Below, in pieces: positions 18,354 through 24,257 of a stretch of 64,000 nucleotides of DNA. The position numbers and the translations under genes are program-made. Origin of the DNA: Myxococcales bacterium (GTDB lineage Bacteria; Myxococcota; Polyangia; Polyangiales; Polyangiaceae); NCBI GenBank assembly GCA_003151595.1, contig PLXW01000106.1, positions 15,738 through 79,737 on the forward strand, in the 5' to 3' direction. How positions within the stretch are numbered: the first letter of the stretch is position 1; each line of letters begins with the position of its first letter. Below the pieces are notes generated by a model. That model was not told where the DNA came from and did no database searches. It saw only the letters and a list, made by a program, of their open reading frames with translations.

Positions 18354-20690
18354 GTGCGTTTTCGGATCGCGCGTTCTCGGATCGTGCGTCTCGCGATTCT
18401 CGTGATCGCAGCGATCGCGCTCGCGGGGTGCGGGGGTGCGGACGAGCGGATCCTCACGCTGCGCGATTGGACGTTCCTCGGGCCCGACGGCGCGACCGAA
18501 GCGCTGCACTTGCCGGCGCGGGTCGACCGCAGGCTCCCGAACGCGCCGACCGAGTATCGGATTCGCGCACACGTGGAGGTGCCGGACGATCTGCGCGGGC
18601 ATCGGCTGACGCTCGCCTTTCCGTTTCTTCATGCGCGGGCGACGCTGCGCGCGAACGGCGAAGAGATGGTGGGCCTCGCGCCGGAGATGCGCGAAGGGTT
18701 TCGCGGGACCGATCAGCCACGGTGGCGCATTCCGGCCGAGGTCACGCGCGCCGGTGCGGTCGATCTCGAGCTGACGATTTCGTACCGCCACCTCATGAAC
18801 GGGTGGCTGGATCTCCCGGCGCGCCTCAGCGACACCGACGACGGCGACGCGATGTTCACGTTCGTCTCCACGTTCGATCGCGCGCAAGGCGCGGGATGCC
18901 TGGCGACCGTGTCGCTCACGTCGCTCCTCTACGGGATCATCTTCGTCCTCGATCGCCGGCGGAAAGCGCACGGGTGGCTCACGCTTCAAGGGATCGCCGG
19001 CGGCGCGGGGTACGCGATCGCTTACGTGGGGATCTCGCAGCGCCTCTTCGGCGTGTACGAGAACTCGTTCGTGCCGGTGTTCTTGTGCCTCGGCGTGACG
19101 GCGAGCGTCGAGTTCACACATGCACAGTTCGGGCTCGCGCGGCCGTCGCGGTGGTGGTGGATCGCGTTCGGGGCGTGCGTCGTCCTGGCCGTCGCGTTCC
19201 CGAGCCCGTTCGTGGGGCCGCGGATCGTGCCGCCGTACTCGTGCGCGTTTCCCATGGTGAACGTCGCGTACCAGGTGCCGCTGGGGTGGCGTATCTGGCG
19301 CGAGAAGAAGTCGCTGGCGGCGATCGTGATCTCGCTCTCGTGGGCGTCCCTCGGAATCCTGGGGATGCCCGATCTGTTCGCGTGGGGTGGGCTCGGCGAG
19401 ATCGCGGGCGGCTTGCGCGGCGCGTGCGTGGGGCTGGCGATCGTGGCCTTCATGCAGGCGATCGTGCTGAGCGTGGAGCACATGAAGACGCTCGCGCGCG
19501 CCGACGAGCTGAACGAGTCGCTCTCGAATCGCGTCGAGGCGCTGCGCGCGAAGCACGAAGAGGTGTCGCGCTTGAACGACGAGCTGCGCCGGCAGATCGG
19601 CGCGCGGGCCGACGCGCTGGCGCTGGCCCTGGCGCAGGCGAGCGCGCCGCGGAACGACGGGCCGCGGCTGCTCGAGAACGGCGAGATCGTGGCCAAGCGG
19701 TACCGTGTGGAGCGCCCGGTCGGCGAAGGGGCGACGGGGAAGGTCTACGAAGTGACGCGTCTGACCGACGGCGCACGCCTGGCGCTGAAGCTGCTGGATC
19801 CTTCGTCCGACGGAATGGAGATGGCTCGCTTCGCCCGCGAGGCGCAGATCATCGCGCAGATCGATCACCCGAACGTGATTCGCATCGAGGACGTCGACAT
19901 CACGCACGAGGGGTTCTTCTATTTGATCGTCGAGTTCGTCGAGGGGCTCTCGTTGCGGCATCATTACGGGCGCGCGCGATCGCTTCTGTGGAACATCGAC
20001 GTGCTGGCGCAAGTGGCCGAGGGGCTCTCGGTGGTGCACGCGCGCGGGATCGTGCACCGCGACCTGAAGCCGGGGAACGTGCTGGTGACGAGCGCGCCCG
20101 ATCGCGACGCGAAGCCGCACGTGAAGCTTGCCGACTTCGGGATCTCGAGCGCCGGGCTCGATACGAAGATCCCGTCGCCGAAGTCGGAGCCGCCGCCCCG
20201 CTCGGAGCCGCCGTCGCGATCGGCGTCGCGAACCATGGCGGCGCGCCCCGAGGTGCGCGACATCGACGGAACGGTCACGGGTCAGACGAAGCCGACGATC
20301 ACCCAGAGCGATTCGCTCCTCACCCAGACCGGCGCGTGGATGGGGACACCGAAGTACATGGCCCCCGAGCTCGGCGGAGCGGCGAAGCACGCGCGCCCAG
20401 CGGCCGACATGTTCGCGTTCGGCGTGATGGCGTACGAGGTGCTCGTGGGGAAGGCTCCGTTCGTGGAGTCGCCGGCGATCACGCGCGTGCGCGGAGAGCC
20501 GTTCATGAAGCCACCGCGCATCTACGCGACGAACGGCGAGCTCGACGCGCAGGCCGCGGCGCTCTTCGACGCGTGTCTCGCCGAGTCGCCCGAAGCGCGA
20601 CCCGAAGCGCGGGTGGTCGCCGATGTGCTGAACGCTTACGCCGCCAAGCTGGCGCGCGGGGATCGGGGATCGCGCGCGTCGTTCGTCTAG
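18354..20690 (+). CDS. Membrane Ser/Thr kinase with lipobox, extracytoplasmic sensor and 7TM-type domain
   Basis: A 778-residue receptor kinase starting at GTG. Residues 1-26 give a signal with lipobox LAGC (C26). Residues 30-165 form an extracytoplasmic beta domain resembling the jelly-roll sensor of 7TMR-DISM proteins. About seven hydrophobic segments span 180-375, then a coiled coil at 378-425. The kinase domain (444-770) has the Gly loop GEGATGKV at 457-464, K479 in LALKL, HRDLKPGN at 568-575, DFG at 594-596 and APE at 670-672. About 60 residues of Ser/Pro/Thr-rich sequence are inserted in the activation loop. All catalytic residues are present. Its TAG stop abuts a palindromic repeat split by an IS element. 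The ligand and substrates are unknown. Confidence 0.85.
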   Translation: MRFRIARSRIVRLAILVIAAIALAGCGGADERILTLRDWTFLGPDGATEALHLPARVDRRLPNAPTEYRIRAHVEVPDDLRGHRLTLAFPFLHARATLRANGEEMVGLAPEMREGFRGTDQPRWRIPAEVTRAGAVDLELTISYRHLMNGWLDLPARLSDTDDGDAMFTFVSTFDRAQGAGCLATVSLTSLLYGIIFVLDRRRKAHGWLTLQGIAGGAGYAIAYVGISQRLFGVYENSFVPVFLCLGVTASVEFTHAQFGLARPSRWWWIAFGACVVLAVAFPSPFVGPRIVPPYSCAFPMVNVAYQVPLGWRIWREKKSLAAIVISLSWASLGILGMPDLFAWGGLGEIAGGLRGACVGLAIVAFMQAIVLSVEHMKTLARADELNESLSNRVEALRAKHEEVSRLNDELRRQIGARADALALALAQASAPRNDGPRLLENGEIVAKRYRVERPVGEGATGKVYEVTRLTDGARLALKLLDPSSDGMEMARFAREAQIIAQIDHPNVIRIEDVDITHEGFFYLIVEFVEGLSLRHHYGRARSLLWNIDVLAQVAEGLSVVHARGIVHRDLKPGNVLVTSAPDRDAKPHVKLADFGISSAGLDTKIPSPKSEPPPRSEPPSRSASRTMAARPEVRDIDGTVTGQTKPTITQSDSLLTQTGAWMGTPKYMAPELGGAAKHARPAADMFAFGVMAYEVLVGKAPFVESPAITRVRGEPFMKPPRIYATNGELDAQAAALFDACLAESPEARPEARVVADVLNAYAAKLARGDRGSRASFV

Positions 20691-20775
20691 AGCGCATTCC
20701 AGAACCGCGCGATCCCATCGCGCTGCCGTCGTCGGGGGTCGTCAACGTACAGAAGTACGTCTCCTCACCCGCTCC
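20689..20775 (+). repeat. Palindromic 3'-end element, copy A, left part
   Basis: Begins at the last two bases of the kinase TAG stop. The left arm AGAGCGCATTCCAGAACCG pairs with the right arm at 21970-21988. An inner hairpin ACGTAC-AGAA-GTACGT lies at 20738-20754 or so. The element is interrupted at TA by an IS630-family insertion and continues at 21951. Excising the IS restores a 127-base element matching copy B (22006-22132) in opposite orientation. Confidence 0.85.
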
Positions 20776-21890
20776 TAGTGTCCTGAGTCCGCGATAGCTC
20801 CGTGTCCGGCCTGCTGAAGAGTCCGAGCGCAGAAGCGGCTGACGCTGGCGATGATCTCGTCGGCGGTCTTGTGCCATTCGAAGGGCTTCGGGGCGTCGTT
20901 CGTTGCCGCGATGTATGCCTCGATCGCCTCTTCGAGCTCGCCGGTGTTGAGGTGCGTTCCTCGCCGGAGCGCGTCGTCGGTGAGCGCCGCAAACCAGCGC
21001 TCGACGAGGTTGATCCAAGACGAGTAGGTCGGCGTGAAGTGGATCTTGAAGCGTGGATGACGTCGCATCCACCGACGCACTTGCGGCGTGTTGTGGATCG
21101 AGGAGTTGTCGACCACGAGATGGACGTCGAGTCCGTCAGGCGCTTCGCCATCAACTCGCTTCAGAAAGCGGAGAAACTCGGCCCCGCGTTTCTTCGGGTA
21201 ACACTCGCCGATCACCTTTCCGGTTGCGACATCGAGTGCCGCGAAGAGATTCGTCGTGCCGTGGCGCTTGTACGTCGCGGTCACGCGCTCGGCTTGGCCG
21301 AAGACGAGCGGCAGCACCGGCTGGGTGCGATTCAGCGCCTGAATTTGCGACTTCTCGTCGAGACAGAGGACGACGGCGTGGTCCGGCGGATTCATGTAGA
21401 GGCCGACGATGTCGCGCACCTTCTCGATGAAGAAGTCGTCGTTGCTCAGCGTGAAAGTGCGGCGTCGATGCGGCTTGAGCTGAAATGCTCGCCAGATCCG
21501 CGAGACCGACGATTGGCTGACACCGCAGGTACGCGAGAGTTTTCGCGTACTCCAATGCGTGCAACCTCTCGGCGTCGCATCGAGGGTGAGGCGGATGATT
21601 TCTTCGACGCGCTCGTCGGAGAGCTTTCGGTGAACGTTGGGCTTGGGCAGATCGCTGAGACCCGCGAGGCGCCCTTCGACGAAGCGACGACGCCACTTCC
21701 CGACCGTGTCAGCGTCGACCCGGAGTTGCTTCGCGATCTCGTAGTGCAGCTCGCCGCGCGCGCACCGGAGCACGATCTGCGCGCGCACTGAGAGCGCATG
21801 CGAAACCGCTCGGCCACGCGCATAGCGCTCGAGCGTCTCTCGCTCGTCGGACGTGAGGTGAACCGCGGGAACCCTACGTTTTGTGCTCAT
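20775..21890 (-). CDS. IS630-family transposase
   Basis: A 371-residue DDE transposase with one uninterrupted frame. An N-terminal helix-turn-helix region (ERYARGRAVSHALSVRAQIV, then HYEIAKQLRVDADTVGKWRR) and a second winged-helix part (THWSTRKLSRTCGVSQSSVS) precede the catalytic core. Core motifs are VVLCLDEKSQIQAL (first Asp), VHLVVDNSSIHN (second Asp) and TPTYSSWINLVERWF (Glu). The frame ends GGA CAC TAG: the stop codon uses the TA target duplication plus one host base. The gene looks intact and may be active. GC content is visibly lower than in its neighbours, consistent with acquisition. Confidence 0.95.
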   Translation of the reverse strand: MSTKRRVPAVHLTSDERETLERYARGRAVSHALSVRAQIVLRCARGELHYEIAKQLRVDADTVGKWRRRFVEGRLAGLSDLPKPNVHRKLSDERVEEIIRLTLDATPRGCTHWSTRKLSRTCGVSQSSVSRIWRAFQLKPHRRRTFTLSNDDFFIEKVRDIVGLYMNPPDHAVVLCLDEKSQIQALNRTQPVLPLVFGQAERVTATYKRHGTTNLFAALDVATGKVIGECYPKKRGAEFLRFLKRVDGEAPDGLDVHLVVDNSSIHNTPQVRRWMRRHPRFKIHFTPTYSSWINLVERWFAALTDDALRRGTHLNTGELEEAIEAYIAATNDAPKPFEWHKTADEIIASVSRFCARTLQQAGHGAIADSGH

Positions 21891-21948
21891 CCCTGATGGA
21901 CGAACGACGGCCGGATGGATTCACCGACGAATCATGGACTCAGGACAC
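20778..21948 (-). mobile_element. IS630-family insertion sequence, complete
   Basis: A 1171-bp element with perfect 13-bp terminal inverted repeats GTGTCCTGAGTCC. Both ends are flanked by TA (20776-20777 and 21949-21950), the target duplication typical of IS630/Tc1-like transposition. One transposase gene fills nearly the whole element. It has inserted into a palindromic element at the 3' end of the kinase gene, not into a coding region. Confidence 0.95.
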
Positions 21949-21950
21949 TA

Positions 21951-21988
21951 GGCATCGCTCGGTCTCGCACGGTTCTGGAACGCGCTCT
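21951..21988 (+). repeat. Palindromic 3'-end element, copy A, right part
   Basis: Continuation of copy A after the IS630 insertion. GGCATCGCT matches copy B exactly in reverse complement, and the arm CGGTTCTGGAACGCGCTCT pairs with the left arm at 20689-20707 with one mismatch. Confidence 0.85.
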
Positions 21989-22005
21989 CCGCGTTCGCCC
22001 CGTGG

Positions 22006-22130
22006 AGAACTCGTTCCACAATCGGTCGAGAGCAAGCGATGCCCAGGAGGGATGAGGAGACGTACTTCCTGTACGTTGACGATTCCCGACGCCGGCAGCG
22101 CGCAGCTATCGGCCGGTTGTGGAATGAGTT

Positions 22131-22132
<2 letters not shown>
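22006..22132 (-). repeat. Palindromic 3'-end element, copy B
   Basis: A 127-base intact copy, in inverted orientation to copy A and starting at the TAG stop of cysS exactly as copy A starts at the TAG stop of the kinase gene. Its outer arms (AGAACTCATTCCACAACCGG with CCGATTGTGGAACGAGTTCT) pair with each other; an inner hairpin ACGTAC-TTCCT-GTACGT lies at the centre. Several arm positions differ from copy A on both sides so that pairing is kept. The central strand also reads as an open peptide (TYFLYVDDS), which I regard as incidental. Confidence 0.85.
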
Positions 22133-23651
<1,519 letters not shown>

Positions 23652-23717
23652 GGTAGGGGCGGTATAGCGTCGCGGGCCGGAAACGTCACGCGGGGGGCTA
23701 TGATAAGAAGGGCAGTG

Positions 23718-24257
23718 ATGAACCGCCTGCGTGTCGCGCTCTACGCGTCCGCTCTCCTCGGAGCCGCGCTCGGGACGGCGTGCGGTGCGAGCGGCGCGCG
23801 GCTGGAGAGCGGCGTCTATCGCGACGGCGAAGTCGCGTTTCACATCGGGGGAGTGCCCTCCGAGTGGCGCCCGGTGCAGGTCGATCGGGCGACCCTGGCG
23901 TACCGCGACGAGGGGCGCCGCGCGTCGATCCTCCTCGACGCCCGCTGCCATCAGAAAGACGACGACGTCCCGCTCGTCGCGCTCACCGATCACCTGATGA
24001 TGGGGACGACCGAGCGCGCCATCGACTCGCAAGAGACCATCCCCTTCGACGGCCGCGAGGCGATGCACACGCGCCTCCGCGCCAAGCTCGACGGCGTGCC
24101 GATGGACTACGACGTCTACGTCTACAAGAAGGACGGCTGCATCTACGACTTCGTCTACGTCGCCGAGCCGACCGGCAAGGACGCGAGCGGCGCCGGCGCT
24201 CCGGCGTTCGAACGGTTCGTCTCGTCGTTCCACGCGCTCGCCGGTTCGTCGCCGTGA
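23718..24257 (+). CDS. Small lipoprotein, first gene of a coupled operon
   Basis: A 179-residue lipoprotein from the ATG at 23718, preceded by AAGGG. Signal MNRLRVALYASALLGAAL leads to lipobox GTAC. The mature part is mixed alpha/beta: VAFHIGGVPSEWRPVQV, RRASILLDARCHQKDDDVP and DYDVYVYKKDGCIYDFVYV, with a Cys pair that could be oxidised. The layout of a beta sandwich followed by AFERFVSSFHAL near the C-terminus is common in small periplasmic lipoproteins of unknown role. Its TGA overlaps the GTG of the MlaE-type permease, so a role alongside lipid transport is plausible but not shown. Confidence 0.75.
   Translation: MNRLRVALYASALLGAALGTACGASGARLESGVYRDGEVAFHIGGVPSEWRPVQVDRATLAYRDEGRRASILLDARCHQKDDDVPLVALTDHLMMGTTERAIDSQETIPFDGREAMHTRLRAKLDGVPMDYDVYVYKKDGCIYDFVYVAEPTGKDASGAGAPAFERFVSSFHALAGSSP

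Follow-up and report, generated by a model that had tools for sequence, protein, structure and literature searches.

A 64,000-nucleotide stretch of the genome of a Myxococcales bacterium (contig PLXW01000106.1, positions 15,738 to 79,737; the window in what follows) contains two copies, A and B, of a hairpin-forming element of 127 nt behind the stop codons of a kinase-domain gene and of cysS. Both are probably members of a non-autonomous, palindromic family of mobile DNA with a conserved folded apex, comparable to miniature inverted-repeat transposable elements (MITEs) or repetitive extragenic palindromic (REP) sequences. The positions in the window are given below, the element strand being the one on which the fold is preserved and R1 a covariance model introduced further down.

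18354..20690, plus strand: gene ending at copy A, with a protein kinase domain and a weak 7TMR-DISM match; TAG at 20688-20690
20689..20777, element strand minus: gene-proximal part of copy A (3' arm, apex and most of the inner stem); its final TA is one TA of the IS630 target
20742..20763, minus strand: conserved apex of copy A, 22 nt
20775..21890, minus strand: open reading frame (ORF) of the IS630 transposase (DDE_3, HTH_32)
20778..21948: IS630-type insertion inside copy A, with TA at 20776-20777 and 21949-21950
21951..21988, minus strand: distal part of copy A (5' arm on the element strand)
21989..22005: spacer of 17 bp separating copies A and B, which lie back to back
22006..22132, element strand plus, antisense to cysS: copy B, entire 127-nt hairpin; matched by R1 at 22032-22103, plus strand, E 2.6e-7
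22057..22079, plus strand: conserved apex of copy B, 23 nt
22131..23750, minus strand: cysS, ending at copy B; TAG at 22133-22131, upstream end approximate (longest ORF 22131-24233)

Copies A and B are mutually inverted and lie between the convergent kinase-domain gene and cysS. The sequence-only reading of this DNA had described two copies with about 127 bases in common, one of them split by an IS630, with covarying outer arms and each located at the TAG of its gene, and all of this was borne out. The IS630-type element has the inverted ends GTGTCCTGAGTCC/GGACTCAGGACAC and is bordered by TA on both sides; with its flanks joined, copy A is 127 nt long, as is copy B, and 104 of 128 aligned columns are identical. 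In both copies the folding strand runs antisense to the adjoining gene and shares the last 2 bases of its 3' end with the TAG of that gene. Each copy folds into a single hairpin whose outer stem of 24 bp is free of mismatches, and the folding energies amounted to -86.1 (A) and -78.5 kcal/mol (B), compared to -67.5 and -57.1 for the complementary strands. The plus strand of 21984-22135 gave a z of -8.15 with 0 of 200 shuffles folding equally well, the minus strand a z of -3.32. Both examples of paired change quoted earlier (AGAGCGC...GCGCTCT versus AGAACTC...GAGTTCT, and a central G/C swap) are correct. Among the outer 24 pairs, the 5' arms of A and B differ at 6 positions and the 3' arms at 5; all 5 coincide, every outer-arm pair is kept, and the chance of such an overlap is 1.25e-4. 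Over the entire fold there are 6 double compensating changes and 1 single change. The joined copy A used for this probability was short of one base of the TA, far from the outer arms, and the corrected comparison gave the same six double changes; the same one-base-short copy also entered the fold-strand, 51-row alignment, uncollapsed G-T/A-C and stop-to-apex counts given below. A third copy was not found within the 64 kb of the window.

Outside the window, a scan of genome contigs with the apex pattern gave 90 matches in 89 stretches, with about 1 match estimated to be due to chance. The stretches came from Clostridia, Treponema, Desulfobacterales, Saccharibacteria, Campbellbacteria, Nitrospirae, Myxococcales, Holophagae and others. 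L002 and L014, at the least, resemble chance matches of the pattern; these two as well as L028, L062 and L068 were dropped, the remaining 85 were clustered to 53, and 49 of them were aligned with the two window copies (51 rows). Because the search pattern fixes the apex, its conservation is in part a product of how the copies were selected; the features of loop and arms are not affected in this way. Covariance model R1, built from 14 of 17 candidate rows, matched 136 times in 90 sources at E <= 0.05, some matches lying on reverse strands and window copy B being among them; model R2 was built from 83 matches at E <= 2e-5 from 58 of the 90 sources.

The family is widespread but patchy. At E <= 1e-5 and with 21-29 candidates scored per genome, it was present in 26/140 genomes sampled from the phylum of the Myxococcales metagenome-assembled genome (MAG) G001, in 19/192 from the phylum of the Campbellbacteria MAG G009 and in 64/148 from that of the deltaproteobacterial MAG G004. 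When up to 150 candidates per genome were scored in 18 hit-bearing genomes, the copy number ranged from 2 to at least 147, the highest values being those of G004 (at least 147) and G005 (at least 146). Among 7 genomes of the Treponema vincentii genus group, 5 had 36-70 copies and 2 had none. Four loci of the Campbellbacteria MAG (L020, L055, L067 and L083) carry two or three elements in a head-to-tail array, repeated every ~125 bp. Within these arrays, the terminal hairpin changes in pairs (ACGTAC/GTACGT versus CCGTA/TACGG).

Most copies, as judged by eye, share a common plan: a variable arm, a CAAGG-like motif, a stem, the apex, the stem again, an AACGCAG-like motif and the complementary arm. 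The element strand thus forms a long rod of variable but complementary outer arms, a conserved loop (C-AA-G / C-GCA-G), a middle stem and a terminal hairpin with the consensus GA-G[N]CGTAC-loop-GTACG[N]T-GA. It folded better than its complement in 88/92 matches, and RNAalifold predicted 19 pairs from the 51 rows, 11 of them with double changes. The earlier reading had taken the compensatory changes for a sign of selection on a folded strand, an idea that would have suffered from a lack of further copies or from copies with broken pairing; the covariance-model search which it had proposed found many, and their pairing is preserved. In an alignment of 83 rows (A4), which were fitted to the model so that pairing is somewhat favoured, 90.1% of the cells were paired, compared to 61.6% after shuffling and 31.6-42.0% after sliding. 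Double changes were seen at 35 of 37 pairs and in 896 cells (295.3 in shuffled alignments), and 0 of 500 shuffles reached these values; 42 of the 500 did reach the value of one of the five measures, that of further pair types.

The mispairs indicate which strand is under selection. Scored by Watson-Crick pairing, the outer arms of 69 copies had 66 G-T and 18 A-C mispairs, a ratio inflated by the shared ancestry among copies. Collapsed by clade (assigned by hand) and pair, the ratio was 61:28 (p = 6e-4); this count comes from the same model-fitted rows and leaves out a G-U closing pair that is nearly invariant (75/83 copies). The folded strand tolerates G-T, not A-C, and therefore selection acts on the element strand. 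Alternatively, palindrome self-correction or whole-copy gene conversion could have produced the covariation without any selection. Orthologous Treponema copies which differ in both arms, within flanks that are 92-95% identical, agree with this idea, as does an apical-deletion series in genome G117, typical of palindrome slippage, in which nested palindromes have the same ends and a deleted apex (e.g. L286, L295, L297 and L299). However, self-correction would not lead to an excess of G-T over A-C on one of the strands, nor would it preserve loop bases across phyla, and we regard this explanation as very improbable.

The position of the element relative to genes was analysed with ORFs called longest-first in this study, not with annotated genes. 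By neighbour layout, 141 copies fell into 66 tandem-antisense, 13 tandem-sense, 17 convergent and 5 divergent cases, 39 overlaps with an ORF and 1 at an edge. Clostridia show a strong orientation bias (38 tandem-antisense versus 2 tandem-sense), whereas Treponema (12 versus 10) and the deltaproteobacterial/other group (7 versus 9) show none; a bias with respect to the replication strand was not clear in Treponema, as judged by eye from copy positions only. Gene ends were found 49-72 nt from the apex centre in 74/97 antisense but only 2/49 sense cases, counts without the 11 copies that lie within long ORFs and the 6 at edges, and a distance peak at ~60-68 nt from the apex centre was repeated in every clade group. 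Further, an ORF of 90 codons or more ended within range in 89 rows, and in 38 of these the stop was 50-52 nt before the apex; the 89 rows include window copy A twice.

Tight placement behind stops is what would be expected of a host 3'-end device, a bidirectional terminator or transcript-end structure that is multi-copy by chance, whose hairpin would stop or protect the RNA and whose A- and T-tract arms would do the work. Copies from DNA below 35% GC indeed have T4 in the 3' arm (63/73) and A4 in the 5' arm (68/73), and convergent neighbours outnumber divergent ones (17 versus 5 of 141). But T4 is almost equally common in the other arm (52/73), and in high-GC copies it was found in the 3' arm in only 1/18. 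A terminator scan of window positions 20500-22400, covering loops of 3-8, gave 0 terminator-like sites, although low-GC copies may still be terminators. In Clostridia, 38/48 copies lie between tandem genes with a median of 95 nt to the next start, and an ordinary terminator would have no need of an apex sequence common to several phyla. The preserved fold is, moreover, antisense, and the gene's own mRNA has the worse fold. Because the selected strand is antisense to the adjoining gene, a benefit to the fold of that gene's mRNA is disfavoured, and we consider a host terminator an unlikely explanation. Of the earlier view of a 3'-end element the adjacency to stops stands, but, with the preserved fold antisense, the structure does not belong to the 3' RNA of the gene itself; the element is a dispersed, patchy and apparently mobile repeat.

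An RNA transcribed from the element strand, either an antisense or a small RNA that was spread by ordinary duplication, would fit the G-U pairs, the G-A mismatches and the conserved internal loops, all of which look RNA-like. It would also fit the adjacency to the TD-2 RNA of Rfam (RF03162), another multi-copy Treponema hairpin, which was found beside the element in several of 20 Treponema loci scanned. TD-2 is unlike the element in that it has a separate model, and in the loci scanned its matches lie beside, never on, the element. Close to the element's 5' side and on the opposite strand, TD-2 is seen at L117, L169, L178, L183, L185 and L192, and on the same strand at L170, a composite 3'-end arrangement. 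No Rfam family matched the element: at the gathering score there were 0 matches in the window, and 18 loci gave only rRNA, tRNA and TD-2. Below threshold, positions 20500-22400 had six matches (E 0.14-8.9), of which only mir-4018 (E 4.4) touches the copies. The same positions contained 0 promoter-like sites of the sigma-70 type, the type searched for, and between tandem genes a promoter for the element strand would fall into the start of the next gene. Copy numbers this high and target duplications would be unusual for an RNA gene, and we give this possibility little credence.

Mobility is indicated by three findings taken together: near-identical dispersed copies, target duplications and empty sites. 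In G161 (5 of 6 regions compared) and G117 (6 of 6), units of ~175-185 bp are 93-99% identical and the DNA beyond the unit is mostly unrelated. In G004, both ends were recognisable in 10 of 21 copies, and 6 of these 10 had identical flanking 6-mers, a 6-bp target duplication, whereas matching 6-mers were seen in 0 of 90 mismatched pairs. The left end of the G004 elements L120-L139 has a second, similar end-repeat (GATGAACTCGTAAAAAGTCC then GACGGTTTCGTAAAAAGTTC), and alternative pairings are possible. Finally, of 30 CysS relatives 12 were examined; they are 53-66% identical to the window protein, with that of G001 being nearest, and the core of the element was not found within 200 nt of the cysS stop in any of the 12. 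Since their C-termini end within 0-4 residues of that of the window protein, the element adjoins the native cysS stop. CysS-like proteins are also encoded by 13 viral contigs (L314-L326), with 33-41% identity to the window protein. At L142, near the end of contig C98 of G001, the palindrome runs well past the usual arms, possibly a fold-back artefact of the assembly.

Several observations weigh against a mobile family. Target duplications were not found at the copies of the Clostridia genome G007, of Treponema and of G001, and none was seen at the window copies. A filled and an empty Treponema site do not show a clean insertion, as the spacer differs too, and the outer ends are unrelated between genomes, which is odd for one transposon family. 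Simple transposition does not account for the placement at stop codons, which could be functional, and in G004, the genome with duplications, most copies do not adjoin an evident stop. No pair of ends framing a transposase was found among 38 matches to the ends of G117 elements, nor among those listed of the 121 matches to the ends of G004 elements. No neighbouring gene tracks the family: apart from serine recombinases, clusters of neighbours, named by eye, are of housekeeping type or represent orthologous sites. The apex pattern was not found in viral contigs, but a reversed control also gave 0, so this result has little power; plasmid and phage records gave only short, weak matches or none, and no match covered most of a query.

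Candidates for a mobiliser and for a vehicle of the element were examined and rejected. Carriage by phages or plasmids was dismissed on the results for viral contigs, of little power as said, and for plasmid and phage records. A universal role of Y1_Tnp, the domain of REP-associated tyrosine transposases (RAYT), is contradicted by the distribution of PF01797, found in 12 of 24 genomes, that is in 12/22 carriers and 0/2 non-carriers; it had no match in the six Treponema carriers searched and in the Myxococcales G001. Genes of large serine recombinases (Resolvase, Recombinase, Zn-ribbon) adjoin the element at the Clostridia MAG loci L032, L043 and L050, of which L032 and L043 are orthologous sites, but of 28 genomes only 8, including a non-carrier, had PF07508, and it was absent from the six Treponema carriers searched, which speaks against a universal mobiliser of this type. 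A link to DUF3800 was considered because RNA motifs bearing this name exist and because one frame of the family apex, as at window 22057-22079, reads ETYF-YVD, resembling the N-terminus of DUF3800. The likeness is probably due to chance because 22-nt variants break the frame and DUF3800 does not co-occur with the element: PF12686 was found in 8/28 genomes (8/26 carriers) and was absent, for example, from G002, G004, G005, G009 and G010.

attC sites lie close to stop codons. If the element were an attC-like recombination site, its antisense (bottom) strand would fold when single-stranded, and a recombinase would join or excise genes tagged at their 3' ends. The element indeed has an attC-like geometry in being a palindrome behind a stop; bottom-strand folding and unpaired internal bases at gene 3' ends are attC features as well (PMC2727003). 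However, attC keeps AAC/GTT outer boxes and varies in its tip (PMC2727003), whereas the element has a conserved tip and variable ends. Copy A ends in AGAGCGC...GCGCTCT without such boxes, copy B happens to carry them, and none were seen by eye in ten G001 copies. In addition, copies are dispersed and scattered beside ordinary genes, and a recombination site of this kind appears improbable to us.

The probable reading, a MITE- or REP-like mobile family, can be compared with known members of both groups. A MITE family has its ends in common with its transposon, and the interior is free. Terminal inverted repeats and a short length were found in the element as well (127 nt in the window, ~175-185 bp in G161 and G117). 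The MITE Chunjie of Geobacter uraniireducens (PMC10969869) resembles it in size (~130-190 bp), inverted ends, duplications (as in G004) and many intergenic copies. Unlike in a MITE, it is the interior apex of the element that is common across phyla, and the ends are not. Multicopy sites of class 4 in Geobacter were rejected as members of the family, as they are described as a CCYTC repeat and hence differ. REP sequences and REPINs with their RAYT are likewise short, palindromic and extragenic, with compensatory changes and a hairpin on one strand (PMC3116915, PMC2817692). But a REPIN has conserved ends and a variable middle beside a RAYT (PMC3116915), the element a conserved apex and variable ends, and Y1_Tnp is absent from 10/22 carriers, six Treponema included. 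Placement at 3' ends alone is not new, since RepRanger found 446 of 4,072 putative REPs of E. coli within 15 nt of a stop codon (PMC12306157).

The motif MRSC-65-2, a single covarying stem with more than 20 000 representatives in diverse phyla, often dozens per genome (PMC11109978), shares with the element a long covarying stem, multiple copies and a distribution over diverse phyla; it was judged to be selfish, and a DNA form was considered possible. Its conserved UYCCGG repeat is not seen in the element consensus, a comparison made by description only, and the available parts of the publication describe no placement at stop codons (PMC11109978). The sequence-only reading had stated that no such element was known. 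A name was indeed not found, as no matching description turned up in the open full-text literature, searched in main texts only and with few subscription papers; yet structured, covarying, multi-copy palindromes are already a published kind (MRSC, PMC11109978; REPINs, PMC3116915; MITEs, PMC10969869), and one of the 250 mobile or repeat candidates in Table 1 of PMC11109978 could be this family.

A more far-reaching possibility, which we put forward tentatively and consider rather doubtful, is that the element represents a distinct class of mobile hairpins in which the conserved folded apex and not the ends is recognised across phyla. Undescribed machinery would then insert it behind stops with the folding strand antisense, making it a single-strand element (DNA or reverse-transcribed RNA) addressed to 3' ends, unlike REP sequences, MITEs or attC sites. 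As for how the probable MITE- or REP-like family would move, the element strand may fold while it is single-stranded, be it during replication or repair or as a transposition intermediate. An enzyme supplied in trans would recognise the apex or the internal loops, and the new copy would be placed at AT-rich or 3'-end sites, where an insertion would be harmless. Changes in the arms would always be paired, as an unpaired copy would stop moving or be lost.

In sum, a folded element of ~130 nt with a common apex occurs in many phyla and in more than 100 copies in some genomes, without an Rfam family or a name that was found. Its fixed distance to stops and its strand-specific fold make it testable how small palindromic repeats reach the 3' ends of genes and whether they spread by virtue of DNA or of RNA folding. 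If it were true that one enzyme recognises the apex in all phyla, this would be a very widely used activity, so far unknown.

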